DNA from: Deltaproteobacteria bacterium
GTDB lineage: Bacteria; Bdellovibrionota; Bdellovibrionia; Bdellovibrionales; JAMPXM01
Assembly (NCBI GenBank): GCA_017302795.1
Contig: JAFLCB010000001.1
Span: forward strand, 248,001 to 312,000
Direction of reading: 5' to 3'
Length of the DNA: 64,000 nt
Below the pieces are notes generated by a model. It saw nothing but the letters and a program-made list of their open reading frames with translations. It was not told where the DNA came from and searched no databases. Shown piece after piece: positions 39,048-58,779 of the stretch; the first letter of the stretch is position 1, and every line of letters starts with the position of its first letter. A program made the position numbers and the translations under genes.

Positions 39048-41852
39048 CTAGTCCTCGCAAGGTGTTTTTAACGGACGTTCTTGACCAGCGAACTCGTAAC
39101 AGGTCTTGTACCTTTTTTTTGCGCCGACTATTCGGCCGTTTGATCCGATTACCTTGATACTCCGGTCAATGAGCTGCTGTTGAACCTTGAGGTCCATCAA
39201 ACGTCTCTCGACCAGACGATAACGCTTGGTAAACAGTCCCACTAATAGATCAGGCTGTTCCTGTAAATCCGGGGACGCCACGGCCTGCGCAGGATCACGT
39301 CCCGCTTTGGGCTTTACCGTCGCGGCGCCTGCTTGCATCGACGAGCGCGAGGACGCTTTGTCGCTGCTTTCGGTTGCGGACGCTTGCGGCGCGGATAAAT
39401 TCCCTGCGGCCGACGGCGGCTTAGGCGCTGTTGAAGAAACCACTGATATACCCGCATTGGCCCCTCGATCCCCAAAGCGAGAAGCCGCACCCACATCACC
39501 AACATTGCGCGTGGAATTTAACGAAAAAGAGGTTCCGCCATTCGTTTTCACTGACACCGCGGCTGTTCGATTTGCCGCAAAGAGATTGTCGATTCTTAGT
39601 GCTTTTAAGTCGGACCTGGTCGGTCTAAAGGCGATGAAGGATCCTTCACTCGTCAGACGCTTCGAATTGCTTTGCGAGCGATCTGCCACCGCGATCGCTT
39701 GGGGTACAATCGCTTCACGCAGATACTTGAACCCTCGCGTCGCTAAGCCGGCAACATCCGTTGCCCGTTGATAGCTGGTCTCCGCCATCGAACGACCGCT
39801 GCTTAGCGAGGTCACTCTTGTCACTGGCAAGGGTGATCGGTCGGGATCCCTAACCGGAAGCGAGGTGACCGACGGTGCTGTGGCCACCGACTGATCACTT
39901 CCCGACCGACTGACGACGTCATCAAGGTCACTGGCACCTGGCACACTTATGCTTGGGGATTTCATTCCGAGATCAATTGAGGTGTTCCAAACTATCGGAC
40001 GAACTTCGCCAGGAATATTGCTCGGGGGCACCTGCGTAATCGGGCGCCGCGGCGGAACGACCATTCCGTCTTCACAAGGAACATTATAATCCGCGTTCGC
40101 ACGCGAAAAATAATTTCGAAGAAACTGAAAGATTGGGGCTGCACGGCCGAACAAGCGTGAACTGTTCGGTTCAATTTGACAAGATCGCGGATTAACGGTT
40201 TCGCCGTCAGTTCTGAGTTCGATCAGTGAATTCGAGATGCTAGTCGCCAATCGCTCACGAAAACTTTCAGAAACTTGGCCGCACATTAATCGCTTGGATC
40301 CGACGACAATGTTTTGACAGTCTTGTCTAAAAAAATCTGTGGCGTATTTCGAAATTCGTTCGGCCCAGCTCGCCCGGCAAGTCTCGCCTCGAAGAGTCAC
40401 TAAACAATTGGAAAAAGCTGAGTCGTCGATAATTCCCGCTTTATCAAGACCCAAAAGAAACCCGCGAAAAAGTTCAGCGGTTCCGTCTTCTTGAAATTTA
40501 ACATTGAGCTCGGATAACAAGGTTGCCATTTGCTCGTCTCGCGCAAAGTGGCTTTCGAGCGCGAGAAATCGATGGTTATCCACAACCAACTGATCCAGTT
40601 TTCCGCAGGCCGTTTTTCGGCGGCCTATAGGGTTTGTTGGATCCCCACAACAAGCTTGCGCCGCATGAGTCAGATCTTCATTCTCGATGCCCGAGATATG
40701 AACAAGCTCGTGGAAAAGCACATTCTTATAGTTTTGCGCACTTCCATCGGTCGTCGTTGCTATCCCCTCGTCCGGCAAACACAAATGTAACACGACCTGC
40801 TTGGTAGTATGGTTTGCATACCCCGGCTGCGCCTTGCCGCGAGTTCCCGGCTTGAAGTCACAACTAATGAGTCTATCGGAACGTGGATTGTTGAGACCGC
40901 TTAAGAAGTTTTGTTCGATTCTGGCCGCGTTAATCCCGAGGCCAGATTGTTCAAGACACTTGAGATATCGGCCTCGCGATTCACTGTCTGCAGAGGGCTC
41001 GCCTTTCGAGCTCGTCATCATGAGCTCTGCAAGACTAGACACAATTTTTTCAAAATCATTTTCGCGGCCCGGTTTTTGGCAAGAAGAATCGAACATCTTC
41101 GATTCCTTAAGTTTTGCGGTTAATAGATCGACGCGCTCTTTGGCATCGTGCTTGAGAATCTTCCACCACTCGCGCTGCAGTGATGCCGCTCGTCCTTTCG
41201 CCATGTCATCACTTTCACAAAGAAGTTGGTTGCCAAAATAGTTCACTTGATAATAGCGCCAATTAAAATCATCAATTGGAAATCTATCGACCTCTGACTT
41301 CTCAACGCCGCCTATGAAACCTGGCGCGATGGACTTTGAAGGTGCATCGGGTATTTCCTCAGCCGCAAACGAAGCTGGAACAGATTCAGACATTAACCTA
41401 CGGTCAGCTCGATCAAATTTTGTTCGCAAAAGATTGTAGCGGCGTCCGTCGAGATCCAAAACATAAAATGCTTCAAAGGTTCCTTCTTTTGATCGTTCGG
41501 TAACATTCATTCGAAGAAACCGTCCGCGACTAGGGTTCGTCGCGAGGACGGTCTTTTCGCCTCTCGTGATTTCCCAGAAATCGACCGTTCCATCTGCGTT
41601 TTGGTCCAATTGAATTTCAGAAAAAGAAGGGCCCACAAAAATTTGCTTTCGTACTCGACCCGCGTCGTCTTTCCGCTGCCGAATTATCATGGACCCGTGC
41701 TTCGTCGCGAGGGCCGCGCCGAAGAGGGACTCAAGATCGCGCTCGAATTTGCTTTCGGAACCACCAAGGGCCAGATTCGGATGCGCGAAAAGTAAACCGA
41801 GAATTAAACAGCCAGAAAGCACGGCAGTTCGTTTCGAAATGTACTTCGGCAT
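39048..41852 (-). CDS. Secreted zinc metallopeptidase-like protein B (tandem paralogue)
   Basis: The 934-residue product parallels protein A: signal peptide, DQNADGTVDFWE loop, gluzincin-type HELVHISGIENED near 374 with nearby CC, a Cys-rich middle, a Ser/Pro/Ala-rich region and a conserved end (RYRLVERRLMDLKVQQQL ... TPCED). HExxH suggests zinc catalysis, and a Glu eight or more residues later could be the third ligand. Start context GGGGTC(A/T)TGAATGCC is shared with copy A. Substrate unknown; digestion of prey or matrix protein would be speculation. Confidence 0.7.
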   Translation of the reverse strand: MPKYISKRTAVLSGCLILGLLFAHPNLALGGSESKFERDLESLFGAALATKHGSMIIRQRKDDAGRVRKQIFVGPSFSEIQLDQNADGTVDFWEITRGEKTVLATNPSRGRFLRMNVTERSKEGTFEAFYVLDLDGRRYNLLRTKFDRADRRLMSESVPASFAAEEIPDAPSKSIAPGFIGGVEKSEVDRFPIDDFNWRYYQVNYFGNQLLCESDDMAKGRAASLQREWWKILKHDAKERVDLLTAKLKESKMFDSSCQKPGRENDFEKIVSSLAELMMTSSKGEPSADSESRGRYLKCLEQSGLGINAARIEQNFLSGLNNPRSDRLISCDFKPGTRGKAQPGYANHTTKQVVLHLCLPDEGIATTTDGSAQNYKNVLFHELVHISGIENEDLTHAAQACCGDPTNPIGRRKTACGKLDQLVVDNHRFLALESHFARDEQMATLLSELNVKFQEDGTAELFRGFLLGLDKAGIIDDSAFSNCLVTLRGETCRASWAERISKYATDFFRQDCQNIVVGSKRLMCGQVSESFRERLATSISNSLIELRTDGETVNPRSCQIEPNSSRLFGRAAPIFQFLRNYFSRANADYNVPCEDGMVVPPRRPITQVPPSNIPGEVRPIVWNTSIDLGMKSPSISVPGASDLDDVVSRSGSDQSVATAPSVTSLPVRDPDRSPLPVTRVTSLSSGRSMAETSYQRATDVAGLATRGFKYLREAIVPQAIAVADRSQSNSKRLTSEGSFIAFRPTRSDLKALRIDNLFAANRTAAVSVKTNGGTSFSLNSTRNVGDVGAASRFGDRGANAGISVVSSTAPKPPSAAGNLSAPQASATESSDKASSRSSMQAGAATVKPKAGRDPAQAVASPDLQEQPDLLVGLFTKRYRLVERRLMDLKVQQQLIDRSIKVIGSNGRIVGAKKRYKTCYEFAGQERPLKTPCED
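41344..41661. repeat. 318-bp tract identical between tandem paralogues, copy B
   Basis: Partner of 38382-38699. The flanking codons differ sharply on both sides, so the borders of the conversion tract are clear. Confidence 0.9.
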
Positions 41853-43844: not shown

Positions 43845-45215
43845 ATGAGAAATAAATCACTGTCGCGAACTCAAAAATCCGTTCTTTTTGCCGGATTTGC
43901 AATTGCAGGAATGATTGGTCTCTTTCAAAACTGCGGCAGCGGTTTCGCTGTGGATCCAGCAGCCATCAGCGCAAGTCAGCTCTCCTCAACCGGTGTCACG
44001 AAGGTTGTTGGTACTTCTAATGCCGACTTCAAAACGTGTCGCACGATGACCACACCGCTATTTGACTGTCTTGAATCGAGAAGCGAAGCCAAAGGACTGC
44101 TGAAGGCTGCAGACGTCACTCGCTGCACGACCGGAGCGACACCGCCTTCCGATCTCGACGTGTCGATATGTCTAACAAAAGCAGGATTTCCTATCTTTAA
44201 TTATCGTGAGCCACTGCAATGGGACATTGAGGGCTGCGCTTCAAGAGTCGGCACACCGAAAATTGCTACCTGCCTAGAAAAAAACGCGATCCGTCCAGCC
44301 TCGGTCACCCAAGCCGTGATTGAAACATGCATCAACGCGGTCGGAATGTTGAATGTTGAAAAGTGCCTGCGAAAGAATGGACATCTCGCTAAAATTTCTT
44401 TCGTTTCAAATTCTGATGCTGCGCTTTGCGGTAAAGTTACCGAGCAGGGAACGAACAGCCTTGTGATTCGTACCTGTCTTTTAGACCGCGAAGTTATTCC
44501 AGCAACGGTTCTCCAAGCCGATATCGATACTTGCATGACTAACGCGCCGACGGCGATCGGTCGCTGCCTTCGTTCAGGACGCAAAGTTCCGCGCGTCATC
44601 ATGCAGGCAAACATAAATGGTTGTATCAATGCGGTTGGTCCCACGCGAATCGCCACTTGCCTCGAGGGGAACGGGTACCTTTATGATTCCCTGTTGCCAG
44701 CCGCTACTCTTCAAACTGTCATCGATGATTGCGTCACGGTTGTCGGCACAGCGAACGTCGCCCGTTGCTTGCGCGCGCGCAACGTTCTTGAGAGACCGAT
44801 TTTACAAGCACATATTGCCGCCTGTAACCTCGCGGCAGGCCAAGACAAAATCGTTACCTGCCTCGCAGCAAACGGTATGCTTGATGCCAGTGGTCTTGCA
44901 ACCAACAGCGTAGCCGAAAAACCTTTCTTGCAGGCCGACATCGATACCTGCGTTACAAACGTCGGCATCGGTAGTGTTGCAACATGCATGGTGGGTCCAC
45001 GCGCAGCTCTTCAAGCAAACTCTTATCAAGCGCACTTTGCAGCGTGCCACCGGTTCAATGACCCAACGGGCGTCGCCGCTTGTCTTAATGGATCCGGAAT
45101 GCTTCCGGCGACTGCGACACAAGCGAATTTCGATACCTGTTTAGCAGCTGCCGGACTGGCAGGTTTAGAAACCTGCATGCGCACGCGTGGCTTCATCACT
45201 TATCCAGCGCTATAA
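43845..45215 (+). CDS. Lipoprotein built of Cys-pair repeats
   Basis: The 456-residue product has a signal peptide with lipobox FQNC (residue about 29), a form common in Bdellovibrio lipoproteins. From about residue 60 to the end it consists of eight or more units of about 38 residues with a core of Q-x2-(I/F)-x2-C-x11-12-C-L, for example QANINGCINAVGPTRIATCL. Each unit carries two cysteines that could pair. I do not know a named family with this exact repeat. A cell-surface or periplasmic binding scaffold is inference. Confidence 0.75.
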   Translation: MRNKSLSRTQKSVLFAGFAIAGMIGLFQNCGSGFAVDPAAISASQLSSTGVTKVVGTSNADFKTCRTMTTPLFDCLESRSEAKGLLKAADVTRCTTGATPPSDLDVSICLTKAGFPIFNYREPLQWDIEGCASRVGTPKIATCLEKNAIRPASVTQAVIETCINAVGMLNVEKCLRKNGHLAKISFVSNSDAALCGKVTEQGTNSLVIRTCLLDREVIPATVLQADIDTCMTNAPTAIGRCLRSGRKVPRVIMQANINGCINAVGPTRIATCLEGNGYLYDSLLPAATLQTVIDDCVTVVGTANVARCLRARNVLERPILQAHIAACNLAAGQDKIVTCLAANGMLDASGLATNSVAEKPFLQADIDTCVTNVGIGSVATCMVGPRAALQANSYQAHFAACHRFNDPTGVAACLNGSGMLPATATQANFDTCLAAAGLAGLETCMRTRGFITYPAL

Positions 45216-52908: not shown

Positions 52909-53664
52909 ATGACTACAGTAAAAAATCTAAAATTTGATTTTCATAACAAAAACGTAATCGTCACCGGCGGTGCGCGCGGGATCGGCCTTCAGCTGACTCG
53001 CCAGTTTTTGGAGGCAGGGGCCTCCGTTTCGGTCTGGGAGTACTCGACCGACTCGATCGATGCAGCGAAAACTGAACTTGCGGCCTTTGGCTCGAAACTT
53101 CACTTCCAGCAAGTGGATGTGTCTAAGGCGACTTCCGTCGAGGAAGCTGCCAAGAATATCCCTTTCCCTGTTCATATTCTGATCAACAATGCTGGTATCA
53201 CCCGCGATAAATCTTTCGGCAAAATGACCCACGAAGATTTCCAATCCGTGATCGATACCAATCTCACTGGCGTGTTTAATTGCACAAAGGCACTACTTAC
53301 CAAATTCGCCGACACTCCTGACAAAAGAATTATTTCAATTTCATCGGTCGTCGCCCTCTATGGTAACTTCGGCCAAACAAATTATGTCGCTGCAAAAGCG
53401 GGCGTTATCGGCATGACAAAGACATGGGCGCGCGAACTCTCTCGCAAGGGCTTTACTGTCAATGCCGTCGCCCCTGGCTTCACAATGACACCTATGGTGG
53501 AAGCTATGCCAGCCGAAGCACGCAAGCTTATCGAGGAAAAAATTCCGGCTGGCCGCTTTGGCAAACCTTCCGATATTGCGAACGCATGTATGTTTCTTGC
53601 CTCCGACGAGGCTTCCTATATCAGTGGCACCGTGATTTCCGTCGACGGCGCACTGGTCGTTTAA
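52909..53664 (+). CDS. Short-chain dehydrogenase/reductase (FabG-like)
   Basis: The 251-residue protein has the NAD(P)-binding TGGARGIG motif near residue 19, NNAGITRD near 89, the catalytic Ser in ISISSVVALYG and Tyr-Lys in YVAAKAG near 157. It ends with the FabG-like DGALVV. The predicted reaction is reduction of a 3-oxoacyl thioester. It heads a plus-strand cluster with two hydrolases, a ketosynthase III homologue and an AMP-dependent ligase. The ribosome site is weak. Confidence 0.85.
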   Translation: MTTVKNLKFDFHNKNVIVTGGARGIGLQLTRQFLEAGASVSVWEYSTDSIDAAKTELAAFGSKLHFQQVDVSKATSVEEAAKNIPFPVHILINNAGITRDKSFGKMTHEDFQSVIDTNLTGVFNCTKALLTKFADTPDKRIISISSVVALYGNFGQTNYVAAKAGVIGMTKTWARELSRKGFTVNAVAPGFTMTPMVEAMPAEARKLIEEKIPAGRFGKPSDIANACMFLASDEASYISGTVISVDGALVV

Positions 53665-53734: not shown

Positions 53735-54817
53735 ATGAATTTCAGCATGCGCACTAAACTAACGCTGCCACTACTCGCTGTACTCGCTTCCGGAGTCCTG
53801 GCGCTTTCTAGCAGCTTTGCCTCGGCCGGATCTTCGGTGGGCATCTTTGAAACAGACTTTCAAGCACAGATATCGGCAGATCCCGAAACCAGGCAAGACC
53901 GACTGCAAGCGTTCGTCAAAATCCACGACAACCGCGAACTCTTCGTCGACTTCATTAAACCTGCTGCTGGGAAACCAATCGTTGTCCTTTTAAACGGTCT
54001 CACCTACCGCACTGGCGTTTGGGACGCATTCGTAAAAGAGCTTAAAGGCGACGGTCTCGGCATTCTTCGCTACGATCCGATGGGCCACGGTAAAACGATG
54101 GTAAAATACGGCTACCCAGCTGAAGCTTTTGAGGCCGATGACCAAGTGAAAGATCTCAACTCACTTTTGTCAGCTCTTTCCATTAAGAAGCCCGTCCACC
54201 TTTTGGGACTCTCTTATGGGGGCGCAATCGGCACGATGTTCACAGTGAAATATCCGAAAAAGGTCGCTAGCCTAATTTTAATGGCGCCGTTCACGAAACC
54301 TCTTGAAAGCCAAGATCAGCAAATTCGCCTTCAAATCGCACAAACTCGCTTCATGTTCCCGTTCAACCGGTCATCCGATGACGAACTTTACGATTTCTTT
54401 CTCAAGCAAATTGTCTACGCGACCTACCCGCTGGCTGAACCAATCGTCCTCGAACACCCTTACAAACTTGAATCGACTTTCCGACTGGTTCAGGGCGTTC
54501 GAAAGTTCAAAGCAGCTGACGTGGCTGACCAACTTCCAGACGCATCTGTGCATCTGATTGTCGCCGATAAAGATCAGTATATTGAACCGAAGATTTTAGA
54601 AGAACTCTGGAAGCAAATTCCAAAACGAGCGCGACTCAGCCGTCTGTTCATCAATCACTCGGAACATAAAATTCCAGAAGCAATGCCTAACTTCTCGGCT
54701 GAATGGATCAAACTGATCGTCAACGGCGATCAACGTATACAAGACGGCCGAACCTGGAAAGGCGGAACCTTTTTGGGCTACGCAGCCAGCGGAACAGAGA
54801 AAATCGAAATCGAATAG
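53735..54817 (+). CDS. Secreted alpha/beta hydrolase
   Basis: GAGGGG lies upstream of the ATG. The 360-residue product has a signal peptide (ending SFASAG) and an alpha/beta-hydrolase core: VVLLNGLTYRTGVWD, nucleophile Ser in HLLGLSYGGAIGTMF near 155, acid near IVADKDQYIEP, and His in NHSEHKIPEAM near 310. It is exported, unlike the next gene's product. It lies 70 bases after the SDR gene. Confidence 0.82.
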   Translation: MNFSMRTKLTLPLLAVLASGVLALSSSFASAGSSVGIFETDFQAQISADPETRQDRLQAFVKIHDNRELFVDFIKPAAGKPIVVLLNGLTYRTGVWDAFVKELKGDGLGILRYDPMGHGKTMVKYGYPAEAFEADDQVKDLNSLLSALSIKKPVHLLGLSYGGAIGTMFTVKYPKKVASLILMAPFTKPLESQDQQIRLQIAQTRFMFPFNRSSDDELYDFFLKQIVYATYPLAEPIVLEHPYKLESTFRLVQGVRKFKAADVADQLPDASVHLIVADKDQYIEPKILEELWKQIPKRARLSRLFINHSEHKIPEAMPNFSAEWIKLIVNGDQRIQDGRTWKGGTFLGYAASGTEKIEIE

Positions 54818-54846: not shown

Positions 54847-55653
54847 ATGACAAGTGTAGATCTCATGGGATACCAAATGAATGCGGATGTCGTTCCGGCT
54901 GCATTACCCTTGGACACGATTTTTCTTCATGGAAACTTAGCTTCGAACACATGGTGGGAACCCGTCATGGCGGAGCTGAAACGGTCTGCACGCCCTGGCC
55001 TTGAGGGCCGCGCCGTCATGGCCGAGTGGCGAGGTTGCGGCAAATCGCATGCGCCCAAATCCGAGGAAGAGCTTCATCCAGCGGCCCTCGCTGAAGACTA
55101 CATTCAGCTCTGTCATAAACTGGGAATCAAAAAAGCTTGTCTCGTCGGCCACTCTACAGGCGGCATCATCGCTCTCTACGCAATGCTAAAAGCTCCCGAG
55201 CTTTTTGATCGCGCAGTTCTTTTAGACTCTGTCGGCGCCACTGGGGTCCAGTTTGGACCAGAGATGTATGCAGCTTTCACACAGATGAGCACGGACCGCA
55301 GCATTTGCGAAGCCGTCATGCACGGCACGATTCACGGTAACGACATGAAGAGCCAACTCTTTCAACGTATCGTCGACGACGCGTACGGTATTGCAAAAAT
55401 CAATTGGCACGGTGTTCCGCGAATGCTTCATGTGACGGATATTTCTGCGGACCTCGCGAAAATCCATCACAAGGTTCTTGTCCTTCACGGCGCCCATGAC
55501 CCGATTATTCCAATCGATAGCTCGAAAGTTTTGGCGGCCGGTCTTCCAAATGCGCGACTCGAGGTTTTGGAAAACCAGGGTCACTCGACTAACGTAGAAA
55601 ATCCGAAACTTTTTGTTCAGAAATTGAACGATTTTTTGTTTCACCGACCGTAA
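54847..55653 (+). CDS. Cytoplasmic alpha/beta hydrolase
   Basis: AGGAG lies upstream of the ATG. The 268-residue product has the fold's LHGNLASNTWWEP opening near 28 and the nucleophile in VGHSTGGIIALY near 101. The Asp is in LHGAHDPIIPID near 216 and the His in NQGHSTNVENP near 243. Its closest functional analogue by context may be OleB (a beta-lactone decarboxylase), but that is inference. It lies 29 bases from both neighbours. Confidence 0.83.
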   Translation: MTSVDLMGYQMNADVVPAALPLDTIFLHGNLASNTWWEPVMAELKRSARPGLEGRAVMAEWRGCGKSHAPKSEEELHPAALAEDYIQLCHKLGIKKACLVGHSTGGIIALYAMLKAPELFDRAVLLDSVGATGVQFGPEMYAAFTQMSTDRSICEAVMHGTIHGNDMKSQLFQRIVDDAYGIAKINWHGVPRMLHVTDISADLAKIHHKVLVLHGAHDPIIPIDSSKVLAAGLPNARLEVLENQGHSTNVENPKLFVQKLNDFLFHRP

Positions 55654-55682: not shown

Positions 55683-56699
55683 ATGGAATCAGCCAACAAC
55701 ACGAAACACTTTGCGGCAATCACGGGGCTGGGACTTTACGTTCCACCCAACGCCGTGGGAAACGATTTTTTTAACAAAAAATATGATCGTGACATCAACA
55801 AGTTTTTACTAGAACAGCGAAACATCAAAAAACGCCACTTTATGTCGCCTGATCAGGCGACTTCAGACCTTATTGTTCCCGCTGCTGAAGAAGCGATGAA
55901 AGCCGCTGGTGTGACGGCCCGTGACCTCGACTTAATCATCATTGCGACCGATACACCAGATTACGTTTCACCGTCCACCGCCGCTGTCGTTCAGTATAAG
56001 TTGCAAGCGACACGCGCTGGCACCTTTGACCTCAACACGGCGTGCGCCGGATTTGTGACGGCGACGGACGTCGCCTCCAAATACCTAATGGCTGACGAGC
56101 GCTATAATACGATTCTCGTTGTTGGCGCCTACGGAATGTCTAAATATTTCGACTGGTCAGACCACAAGGTTACGTCGGTTTTCGCAGACGGTGCAGGTGC
56201 TGCTATCATTCAGCGGTCTGGCGAGTTCGGTATACTTGCATCCCAACTTGCGACCGACGGTCAATACCATGACTACATGGGTATCTACGCTGGGGGAACC
56301 AAGTATCCAATTTCCGAAGAAACGCTTGCTAAACGAATGCACCTGCTTCAGTTCACGAAACGGATTCCACCGGAGACCAATGGCAAAGTTTGGCCCGAGA
56401 TGACACACGCGATCCTCGATCGTATCGGCAAATCGGTCTCGGACGTTGATCATTTCTTCTTCACTCAGATCAACATCGGTTCGATCATCGAAACAATGGC
56501 GAAGCTTGAAGCACCTTTTGAAAAAGCGCACAACGTGATGGATCAGTTCGGATATACCGGAGGCGCCTGCATCCCCATGGCGCTCGCAGATGCGGCTCGC
56601 CACCACAAACTTAAAAAAGGTGATTTAGTTATGATTCTTGGCTCAGGCGGCGGAATGTCGATGGCCGCTATGGCAATGCGCTGGGGTTACGACACTTAG
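55683..56699 (+). CDS. Ketosynthase III (FabH/OleA-type) homologue with altered active site
   Basis: GGAG precedes the ATG. The 338-residue thiolase-fold protein has the nucleophile Cys in NTACAGFVTATD (Cys121). The usual His of PHQAN is Thr261 (FTQIN) and the usual Asn of GNTSAAS is Tyr291 (GYTGGAC). The C-terminus (GSGGGMSMAAMAMRW) is intact. Loss of both residues argues against normal decarboxylating condensation; acyl transfer or non-decarboxylating chemistry is possible. It sits next to the AMP-dependent ligase gene (17 bases). Confidence 0.85.
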   Translation: MESANNTKHFAAITGLGLYVPPNAVGNDFFNKKYDRDINKFLLEQRNIKKRHFMSPDQATSDLIVPAAEEAMKAAGVTARDLDLIIIATDTPDYVSPSTAAVVQYKLQATRAGTFDLNTACAGFVTATDVASKYLMADERYNTILVVGAYGMSKYFDWSDHKVTSVFADGAGAAIIQRSGEFGILASQLATDGQYHDYMGIYAGGTKYPISEETLAKRMHLLQFTKRIPPETNGKVWPEMTHAILDRIGKSVSDVDHFFFTQINIGSIIETMAKLEAPFEKAHNVMDQFGYTGGACIPMALADAARHHKLKKGDLVMILGSGGGMSMAAMAMRWGYDT

Positions 56700-56716: not shown

Positions 56717-58306
56717 GTGCCGAATATGGAAATTGAGACTCATTCGGAAATTGGTGACTTCGATTGGTTGAAAAACTGGGCGCGACTATCGCCAACTTCC
56801 ATCGCATTCAAGGATGCGGAATCTGGAGTGTCTTACACGTACCGCGAATTGCTTTTCCTCAGCTGCAAACTTTCAGAAAAACTTATCGGGGAATTCAAGG
56901 TAACTCCCGGGGCGCGGGTCGCTGTTTGGGCAACAAACGAACTTGAAACGGTCGCACTCTTTTTCGCCTGTTTGCGCGCTGGAGCAACTATGGTCCCTGT
57001 TAACTTTCGGTTAACCGGGCGAGAAGTCGAACACATCCTGGAAGATTCGGAATCTCAAGTTCTCGTTTTACAAAAGTCTTTCGCCGGAGTTTTCGAAACA
57101 GTCATGGCAAAAGCGCGTCCCGAACATGTGTGGATGTTTGAATCACTTCAAGAGTTCATCGCGACCGAATTGGCGACCGCGAAGAAAAGCTCTGCGAAAG
57201 AAATGTCTGTAACTTCACACGCACTTCCAACCTGGTTTCGGAAGCAGGCAGCGAGCCCGACAAAGCCGTGTATGATTCTTTATACGTCAGGCACAACTGG
57301 CGCGCCGAAAGGGGCCTGTATAACGCCCCTGATGCTACACTGGAATTCCATCAACACGACGCTGCGGCTAAACTTGTCAGAATCAGACGTGTTCATCAGC
57401 TTCCTCCCGTTTTTCCATACGGGAGGCTGGAATGTTCTGCTGACACCTTTTGTACATCGAGGCGCATGCACCGTTCTGACAAAAAAGTTTGAGCCCGAGC
57501 GCATCCTCGAGCTCTGCGAGTCGGAAGGTGCCACAATAATGTTCGGCGTTCCCACGACGATGGAAATGATGACGCATTCCAAACGCTTTGAAAATGTGAA
57601 CCTTTCGAAAGTGCGTTACGCCATCGTGGGTGGTGAACCGATGTCGATCGACCTCATTCGAACATGGCAAAAAAAAGGAGTTCCCATCCGCCAAGGATTT
57701 GGCTTGACCGAATTTGGCCCGAACGTCTTCTCGCTCGACGAGGAGGATGCCATTCGAAAAATCGGTTCGATAGGCTTTCCGAATTTCTACATTGAAACCA
57801 GAGTCGTCGATGACCACGGAAAAGAAGTTTCACCAAATGAAATTGGTGAACTGCTTTTGCGCGGCCCCGTCTGCACGCCTGGGTATTGGAAAAACGACAA
57901 GGCCACGAAGGAAGCCATCATTGACGGATGGTTTCACACTGGAGACCTCGTTCGATTTGATGAAGAAGGATATTTCTACGTCGCGGGCCGAAAGAAGGAC
58001 ATGTTCATTTCCGGAGGCGAAAATGTCTATCCGGTCGAAGTAGAACGGGTACTTAGCCAACATCCGGCTGTCCGCGAAGTAGCCGTGGTGGGTCTTCCAG
58101 ACGAGAAATGGGGCGAGTCAGGATGCGCTGTCATTTCGCTGAATGATGGAGCGCACGTTGATTCTGAAGAGATTCTTCAGTTTTGTACCGACAAACTGGC
58201 AAAGTTTAAAATTCCAAAGCGCGTCGAGTTCATGGAAAATCTCCCCAAAGGGGACTCGGGTAAAATCCTTAAACGCGAAATCAAAAACCTATTCGCCTCA
58301 AAATGA
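56717..58306 (+). CDS. AMP-dependent acyl-CoA synthetase/ligase
   Basis: It begins at GTG, eight bases after AGGAG. The 529-residue ANL-family enzyme has the P-loop YTSGTTGAPKGA near 189, the adenylate-binding RQGFGLTEFGPN near 325 and WFHTGDLVRFDEEGY near 405. The C-terminal hinge GRKKDMFISGGENVYP is followed by the catalytic Lys in LPKGDSGKILKRE. It activates a carboxylate as acyl-AMP and then usually a thioester. In the context of the upstream genes, a role like OleC (beta-lactone synthetase) is conceivable but unproven. Confidence 0.88.
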   Translation: MPNMEIETHSEIGDFDWLKNWARLSPTSIAFKDAESGVSYTYRELLFLSCKLSEKLIGEFKVTPGARVAVWATNELETVALFFACLRAGATMVPVNFRLTGREVEHILEDSESQVLVLQKSFAGVFETVMAKARPEHVWMFESLQEFIATELATAKKSSAKEMSVTSHALPTWFRKQAASPTKPCMILYTSGTTGAPKGACITPLMLHWNSINTTLRLNLSESDVFISFLPFFHTGGWNVLLTPFVHRGACTVLTKKFEPERILELCESEGATIMFGVPTTMEMMTHSKRFENVNLSKVRYAIVGGEPMSIDLIRTWQKKGVPIRQGFGLTEFGPNVFSLDEEDAIRKIGSIGFPNFYIETRVVDDHGKEVSPNEIGELLLRGPVCTPGYWKNDKATKEAIIDGWFHTGDLVRFDEEGYFYVAGRKKDMFISGGENVYPVEVERVLSQHPAVREVAVVGLPDEKWGESGCAVISLNDGAHVDSEEILQFCTDKLAKFKIPKRVEFMENLPKGDSGKILKREIKNLFASK

Positions 58307-58371: not shown

Positions 58372-58779
58372 ATGCGGAAATCATACGTTGGCACAACGAG
58401 CGCTCTGATCCTACTGCTGGCTCTTTCGAGTTGCCAAACTCCTCGCTACAAGGAGTTTGAAGATGTCCACACCGGCATGACGAAAGCTGAAGTTATCGAG
58501 GTCGTGGGAGGGCCTTCCGCCAAACGACGTCGCCAAGGCGTAGATCGCTGGACCTACATTTTTGAAAACCACCCGGACGGCGAACAGGTTCGCGAAGTTC
58601 ATTTCGTCGATGGCAAATCCACCTACGTAGGTACTCAGATTAAAAGCGTCGTGTCTCCAGAAATCCAGGACAAGATCAACGAAACGAAAAGTCGGGTGTT
58701 GGACGAGAAAGAGCGCATCGGCACAGGTTCAGCGAAAAGTGAGGACGTCGAAGTGTTTATTCCGGTTGAAGCGGATTGA
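58372..58779 (+). CDS. BamE (SmpA/OmlA)-like lipoprotein
   Basis: The 135-residue product has a signal peptide with lipobox ALSSC and the BamE-type motif HTGMTKAEVIEVVGGPS followed by WTYIFENH and a beta hairpin. BamE-like proteins bind the outer-membrane assembly complex or related envelope machines. Many such small lipoproteins exist outside the BAM complex, so the precise role is open. Confidence 0.78.
   Translation: MRKSYVGTTSALILLLALSSCQTPRYKEFEDVHTGMTKAEVIEVVGGPSAKRRRQGVDRWTYIFENHPDGEQVREVHFVDGKSTYVGTQIKSVVSPEIQDKINETKSRVLDEKERIGTGSAKSEDVEVFIPVEAD

Follow-up and report, generated by a model that had tools for sequence, protein, structure and literature searches.

A ketoacyl synthase III-fold clade with threonine and tyrosine at the catalytic histidine and asparagine positions, and its catabolic-looking gene set

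Results

A KASIII-fold gene lies in a compact set of five genes

The window, i.e. the whole 64,000-nucleotide stretch of Bdellovibrionota DNA analysed here, carries five genes in the order dehydrogenase, signal-bearing hydrolase, hydrolase, ketoacyl synthase III (KASIII) and ligase, all on the plus strand and separated by gaps of 17 to 70 bases:

52909 to 53664, plus strand: short-chain dehydrogenase, FabG-like, with the acidic Glu44 ending beta-strand 2 (NAD type)
53735 to 54817, plus strand: alpha/beta hydrolase with an N-terminal signal-like segment (probably exported)
54847 to 55653, plus strand: alpha/beta hydrolase with no clear signal-like segment
55683 to 56699, plus strand: 338-residue member of the Thr/Tyr clade with the KASIII fold, ATG start (from the ORF list, Pfam, AlphaFold2 and the tree)
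56717 to 58306, plus strand: acyl-CoA ligase (AMP-binding) with intact YTSGTTG and C-terminal GKILK motifs

A gene for a BamE-like small lipoprotein (58372-58779, plus strand) follows 65 bases downstream of the ligase gene. Elsewhere in the window, ORFs of 934 amino acids (39048-41852, minus strand) and 456 amino acids (43845-45215, plus strand) had no Pfam match. The window gave no Rfam or tRNA matches, and a promoter and terminator scan of it returned 3 promoter-like sites versus 4.9 expected.

The nucleophilic Cys is retained while Thr and Tyr replace His and Asn

The 338-residue protein passes the cut-offs of both Pfam models of the family (ACP_syn_III, PF08545, 81.5 bits, cut-off 24; ACP_syn_III_C, PF08541, 80.8 bits, cut-off 26.6) and belongs to the KASIII fold family of the thiolase superfamily. 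Its AlphaFold2 model (53-row alignment) has a pLDDT of 92.0 and a pTM of 0.92 and, in the top rows of a structure search, fits FabH structures at Z about 45 with an rmsd of 1.6-1.9 across 305-323 residues; because of this fit, we regard the residue-by-residue match to FabH as secure at the level of the model. FabH residues are numbered as in E. coli FabH from NC_000913, and HMMER alignments to solved FabH chains gave the same residue matches as the alignment to the E. coli protein. The catalytic triad of FabH is Cys-His-Asn (available excerpts of PMC8024396 and PMC11801535). The codons of interest, with their conservation in the 98 clade rows described below, are:

56043 to 56045, plus strand: Cys121 (FabH Cys112 by alignment), the retained nucleophile, 98/98
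56463 to 56465, plus strand: Thr261 (FabH His244 by alignment), Thr in 97 and Ser in 1 of 98
56553 to 56555, plus strand: Tyr291 (FabH Asn274 by alignment), 98/98
55950 to 55952, plus strand: Asp90 (FabH Thr81; HMG-CoA synthase Glu79 in alignment), 98/98
56379 to 56381, plus strand: Asn233 (FabH Ala216), clade-specific, 98/98
56643 to 56645, plus strand: Ser321 (FabH Phe304), clade-specific, Ser in 97 and Thr in 1 of 98

The first-pass annotation, made from the DNA alone, had reported that Cys121 is kept and that the His and Asn sites are Thr261 and Tyr291 in conserved contexts; both the E. coli FabH and the HMMER alignments bear this out, and the flanking motifs are retained, with TQIN for HQAN and GYTG for GNTS.

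Thr/Tyr is a fixed trait of one clade

A scan of genome contigs yielded 58 loci; whole-genome searches and a Chloroflexota plasmid were added afterwards. Among the window and these 58 loci, of which one (L104) is truncated and one (L076) has a single stop elsewhere, Thr261 and Tyr291 are present in 58/58 rows with a letter there. After matches shorter than 850 bases or with stops had been dropped and exact duplicates removed, 168 KASIII rows were reduced to 126 distinct rows, i.e. 97 Cys-Thr-Tyr, 1 Cys-Ser-Tyr, 25 Cys-His-Asn and 3 of neither type. Position 261 is Thr in 97 and Ser in 1 of the 98 clade rows as opposed to His in 25/25 ordinary KASIII rows, and position 291 is Tyr in 98/98 as opposed to Asn in 25/25; the clade rows share descent and the counts measure conservation inside one clade, not 98 independent events. 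L126 is the sole row in which Ser replaces Thr261.

In a 70-row tree, one branch splits off the 43 Cys-Thr-Tyr rows (support 99/88; 99% of 200 bootstrap trees), and 24 Cys-His-Asn rows lie on another (support 100/96). We conclude that Thr/Tyr is a fixed trait of one clade set apart from the His/Asn KASIII proteins. Chance or sequencing error as the origin of Thr261 and Tyr291 is ruled out by the clade-wide conservation, and a degenerate or broken FabH by the clade-wide invariance together with the ordinary fabH elsewhere in the genome.

In the class to which the window belongs, 72/143 genomes have a match at E <= 1e-50, 67 of them at E <= 1e-100; these class-wide counts rest on the E-value, the Thr/Tyr motif having been read only in the loci returned. 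Of 395 genomes sampled from the phylum to which one Bacteroidota genome belongs, 57 have a match at E <= 1e-85, with the motif read in the loci taken. The motif is shared by Bipolaricaulota (L100-L103, L105) and one Chloroflexota plasmid (L107), and Bdellovibrio bacteriovorus strain kdesi carries a Thr/Tyr KASIII (L062). On the contig that carries its orthologue, a Bdellovibrio MAG encodes a second, divergent Thr/Tyr KASIII (L071:4262-5299, 33% identity). In the open literature that we searched, we found no paper on this clade; our statement that it is not in print extends to that literature and no further.

The active site has been rebuilt around the Cys

To count as clade-specific, a residue had to be shared by 90% or more of the 98 clade rows and to be all but missing from the 25 ordinary rows. 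Such changes fall, among others, on FabH Thr81, Phe87, Leu189, Met207, Gly209, Ala216, Leu220, His244, Asn274 and Phe304. The replacements include Thr81 by Asp90, Ala216 by Asn233 and Leu220 by Trp237 (each 98/98), as well as Phe87 by Ser96 and Phe304 by Ser321 (each 97/98). Several of the altered positions are pocket contacts in docking to E. coli FabH, according to the available excerpts of PMC6897290 and PMC8457745.

The clade was also compared by hhalign with five HMG-CoA synthases (Enterococcus, Melissococcus, Listeria, Methylobacterium and Streptomyces); D90 aligned with E79, C121 with C111 and T261 with H233 (probability 92.7, E 4e-7). Glu79 is the general base of HMG-CoA synthase. S321 as the counterpart of the HMG-CoA synthase serine was ruled out, hhalign setting S321 beside a Tyr.

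The initial reading had been made contingent on there being no other His and Asn in the active site. No His is invariant in the 98 clade rows, the best being H283 (88/98), H220 (87/98) and H196 (78/98), and H196 and H283 were discarded as substitute catalytic His residues because both vary; for the Asn half, however, there is a candidate in the invariant Asn233, alongside the equally invariant Asp90. Altogether, the pattern of replacements indicates that the active site is rebuilt, not merely stripped or decayed.

The protein is not the FabH of the organism

In the organism's own genome (G000), ACP_syn_III_C matches three proteins: the one from the window, a canonical FabH and another that resembles type III polyketide synthases. 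The canonical His/Asn fabH lies on contig C10 of G000, ahead of fabD-, fabG- and acp-like ORFs; because this ordinary fabH is present, the window protein is not the FabH. The type III polyketide-synthase-like gene (L157, C10 at about 70.4 kb; read from sequence) adjoins a gene for a methyltransferase-like membrane protein. The window protein remains below the NCBIfam cut-offs for FabH (PRK09352, 229.5 of 249 bits; TIGR00747, 200.4 of 292.1 bits), retains only the Cys of the Cys-His-Asn triad, and has no fabD or acp gene beside it in the window cluster. Moreover, a Chloroflexota homologue is annotated as 'ketoacyl-ACP synthase III'. The first-pass claim that the protein is not a FabH although it would be annotated as one is thus well supported, by the canonical fabH elsewhere, the missed cut-offs and the Chloroflexota annotation. 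Of the two reactions that it suggested, acyl transfer or a non-decarboxylating reaction, the second gains support by inference from the loss of the decarboxylation residues, the alignment of D90 with Glu79 of HMG-CoA synthase and the catabolic-looking operon.

Dehydrogenase and ligase genes accompany the KASIII gene across phyla

Within 4.5 kb of the KASIII gene in 79 loci, we found a dehydrogenase gene in 74, a ligase gene in 72, both in 69 and a window-like alpha/beta hydrolase gene in 46. In seven of the 10 loci without the pair (L054, L071, L080, L091, L092, L093, L104), the contig or stretch ends within about 1.1 kb on one side; in L071, the dehydrogenase is absent on the long side too. 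In the other three, a CoA-transferase gene replaces the ligase gene (L107), no dehydrogenase passes the threshold (L138), or neither gene is present (L089).

Among 32 stretches, the window included, protein clusters comprised the dehydrogenase (28), KASIII (28), ligase (27), alpha/beta hydrolase C3 (21), barrel-like C4 (16), MarR C5 (13), SSF carrier C7 (12), lipoprotein C6 (12) and MFS C9 (4). The clusters were named from a Pfam scan of one representative each, and the KASIII count of 28/32 reflects ORF picking that missed L089, L095, L143 and L145, all of which are counted in the 79-locus tally. The barrel assignment of the signal-bearing C4 proteins is weak (Alginate_exp, 23.8 bits, under the cut-off of 25.2). 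Many C3 hydrolases and C6 proteins have a lipobox by simple pattern match. In Bacteroidota, a MarR regulator, an SSF or MFS carrier, the barrel-like protein and lipoprotein hydrolases extend the basic set.

The usual order in Bacteroidota is MarR, dehydrogenase, KASIII, carrier, ligase, C6, C4 and hydrolase, and in most Bdellovibrionales outside the window's family, the dehydrogenase and hydrolase genes are divergent from the KASIII and ligase genes. The Bdellovibrionales clusters examined had no carrier gene alongside them. The Bipolaricaulota and Chloroflexota loci have genes for a branched-chain-type ABC transporter and binding proteins. On the Chloroflexota plasmid (L107:9182-15180), KASIII and dehydrogenase genes are accompanied by genes for CoA-transferase, thiolase and Zn-ribbon OB-fold proteins, a set reminiscent of the archaeal thiolase/HMG-CoA synthase/DUF35 complex. 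In total, the Thr/Tyr KASIII clade is widespread and uncharacterised, with a conserved catabolic-looking gene set.

The dehydrogenase carries an NAD-type motif

An acidic residue where beta-strand 2 ends usually signals a preference for NAD rather than NADP. Of the 74 dehydrogenases, two were unreadable at this position and the remaining 72 have an acid there (Asp in 67 and Glu in 5); Ser-Tyr-Lys is present in 73/73 readable loci, with one unreadable. By contrast, the NAD position is not acidic in the FabG of E. coli or in that encoded by the genome itself. The models of FabG and acetoacetyl-CoA reductase give the window dehydrogenase its highest scores. Neither an acyl-CoA dehydrogenase nor a hydratase was seen in the gene set, and therefore the acid substrate is probably already 3-hydroxylated. 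Taken together, the NAD motif, MarR control, the carriers and the envelope hydrolases would favour breakdown over synthesis.

Discussion

A possible thiolase-like cleavage on a KASIII scaffold

We tentatively propose, with somewhat less than even confidence, that the window KASIII supplies the carbon-carbon bond step of a small catabolic pathway that consumes imported 3-hydroxy acids or their esters, carrying out a non-decarboxylating, thiolase-like cleavage of 3-ketoacyl-CoA; both the chemistry and the substrate are inferred. In this pathway, the exported alpha/beta hydrolase would free a hydroxy acid from its ester, a carrier would import it, the ligase would form the CoA thioester, and the NAD-linked dehydrogenase would convert 3-hydroxyacyl-CoA to 3-ketoacyl-CoA. 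Cys121 would then attack the keto carbon, and the chain would yield acetyl-CoA and a shorter acyl-CoA. Thr261, Tyr291 and perhaps Asn233 would hold the thioester oxygen as hydrogen-bond donors instead of His and Asn, and Asp90 would move the proton as an acid/base, as is held for Glu79 of HMG-CoA synthase. The likeliest substrates, which are the weakest step of the proposal, would be 3-hydroxy acids released from oligomers of polyhydroxyalkanoate or from the 3-hydroxyacyl lipids of other bacteria.

Several observations count against this route. The genome has ordinary thiolases, three of its five Thiolase_N matches being strong (242-310 bits), and these three argue against a thiolase role for the window KASIII. 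The missing carrier at the Bdellovibrionales clusters and the FabG-like scores of the dehydrogenase argue against breakdown, and a reversible dehydrogenase leaves the direction of the pathway unfixed. Moreover, the thiolase and Zn-ribbon OB-fold protein in the Chloroflexota cluster suggest a different or additional step for KASIII there. Finally, Asp90 may bind substrate instead of moving a proton, by analogy with Ser84 of BioZ, which corresponds to D90 by residue count ahead of the Cys and which docking placed at the distal end of that enzyme's acyl tunnel (available excerpts of PMC8024396).

Two other readings, each of which we consider unlikely, take a different view of the same genes. In the first, the enzyme is an acyltransferase or acyl-CoA hydrolase, Cys121 passing a ligase-derived acyl group to water, an alcohol or a carrier protein with no change to a carbon-carbon bond. 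The loss of the condensation residues with retention of the Cys, the neighbouring ligase as a supplier of acyl-CoA, and the existence of the KSIII-like acyltransferases CerJ and ChlB3 (excerpted text of PMC9573744) all agree with it; however, the Cys-activating His of those enzymes and the Asp five residues on are missing from the clade, which has Tyr at 291 and Cys, Ser or Ala at 296, and the NAD-type dehydrogenase in 74/79 loci is left unexplained.

In the second, the enzyme would join two acyl-CoAs, or an acyl-CoA and acetyl-CoA, in a biosynthetic non-decarboxylating condensation, and the dehydrogenase would reduce the product towards an Ole-like lipid or signal. The ole gene set consists of a KASIII, an alpha/beta hydrolase, an AMP-ligase and a dehydrogenase, and the gene kinds here resemble oleABCD; the acid at the Glu79 position of HMG-CoA synthase is equally compatible with condensation. 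Against this stand a dehydrogenase of the short FabG type with an NAD motif, the MarR and carrier genes, which indicate uptake, and the active site, in which the His and Asn of OleA are missing and its Glu117-Pro is replaced by Ser96-Pro97 (Ser in 97/98), as judged from the portion of PMC7064751 available.

That the protein is still a decarboxylating ketosynthase, with the Thr and Tyr hydroxyls taking over from His and Asn in holding the malonyl carbonyl, is in our view very unlikely: FabH is closest by fold and whole-chain similarity and BioZ H255A retains low activity, but BioZ N285A is dead (both from excerpts of PMC8024396), the clade has no invariant His, the window cluster has no acp or fabD, and the genome has an ordinary fabH.

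Should the thiolase-like cleavage be correct, a wider reading, doubtful as a whole, could follow, i.e. that a degradative KASIII represents a second solution to thiolysis, with Asp and Tyr replacing His/Asn (or His/Cys), in an undescribed 3-hydroxyacyl-ester route of predatory Bdellovibrionota, Bacteroidota, Bipolaricaulota and Chloroflexota with which predators might exploit polyhydroxyalkanoate or 3-hydroxyacyl lipids of their prey. The known roles of KASIII enzymes lie in building fatty acids and polyketides. If the proposed cleavage holds, the scaffold would have been turned to cleavage, as shown by a clade with replaced condensation residues, an altered pocket and catabolic-looking genes, and many 'ketoacyl-ACP synthase III' labels would need correcting. 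The gene set offers a defined handle on the use of prey or environmental esters by Bdellovibrio and its relatives.

Comparison with known systems

The window protein resembles FabH/KASIII proteins (E. coli FabH; Burkholderia 4dfe, Neisseria 4ryb and B. subtilis FabHA 8vd9) in fold, length and about 30% identity, and it retains the Cys as well as the Q and N of HQAN; it differs from them in six replacements (His244 to Thr, Asn274 to Tyr, Thr81 to Asp, Ala216 to Asn, Phe304 to Ser and Phe87 to Ser) and in lying outside a fab cluster. With HMG-CoA synthase, it shares the Cys, an acid about 31-32 residues ahead of the Cys and an aligned YTG stretch; however, it has Thr261 at the H233 position, and HMG-CoA synthase has an insert ahead of YTGS. 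The HMG-CoA synthase set of Cys, Glu79 and His233 is therefore incomplete in the window protein, which does not match PF01154; a search for HMG-CoA synthase with PF01154 found it in 0/14 genomes. Similarly, the classical thiolase model (PF00108, Thiolase_N) does not match the window protein, and the thiolases of the genome are located elsewhere.

OleA has the KASIII fold, similar kinds of neighbour genes and non-decarboxylating chemistry, as is proposed here; by contrast, the window protein has Ser96 for Glu117, lacks the His and Asn and has a neighbouring dehydrogenase of another type. Glu117 of OleA is followed by Pro and acts across the dimer interface (available part of PMC7064751), and it is placed opposite FabH Phe87 on the strength of that following Pro; the Ser96-Pro97 of the clade lacks the OleA signature.

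BioZ, a KASIII primed by a special acyl-CoA, has a polar residue, Ser84, at about the D90 position, but it retains a C115-H255-N285 triad (excerpts of PMC8024396). PqsB/PqsC form a heterodimer of two KASIII-like subunits; the window cluster has one KASIII gene, and a second kind is present in three loci only. DpsC uses a Ser nucleophile, whereas the clade has Cys121 in 98/98 rows.

CerJ, ChlB3, DpsC and the PRK06840 type resemble the clade as KASIII proteins with altered catalytic sets. CerJ and ChlB3 have a His at the Asn274 position and an Asp five residues on (PMC9573744, in the part available), and Tyr291 and the residues at 296 place the Thr/Tyr clade outside that group. The Bacillus PRK06839-PRK06840-PRK06841 set, whose members we presume from their numbering to be neighbours, was rejected as the same system, the window KASIII scoring 152 of 315 bits against PRK06840 and lying on a separate tree branch. 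PRK06840-type genes nevertheless occur near the Thr/Tyr KASIII gene in three loci (L153:11900-12922, L100:3858-4847 and L140 from about 2934), with scores of 464 bits for L100 and 441 bits for L153 (cut-off 315) and the L140 protein assigned by tree; all three proteins are CerJ-like in having a His at the Asn274 position and an Asp five residues on. Because of these three loci, we conclude that two unusual KASIII kinds can share one cluster.
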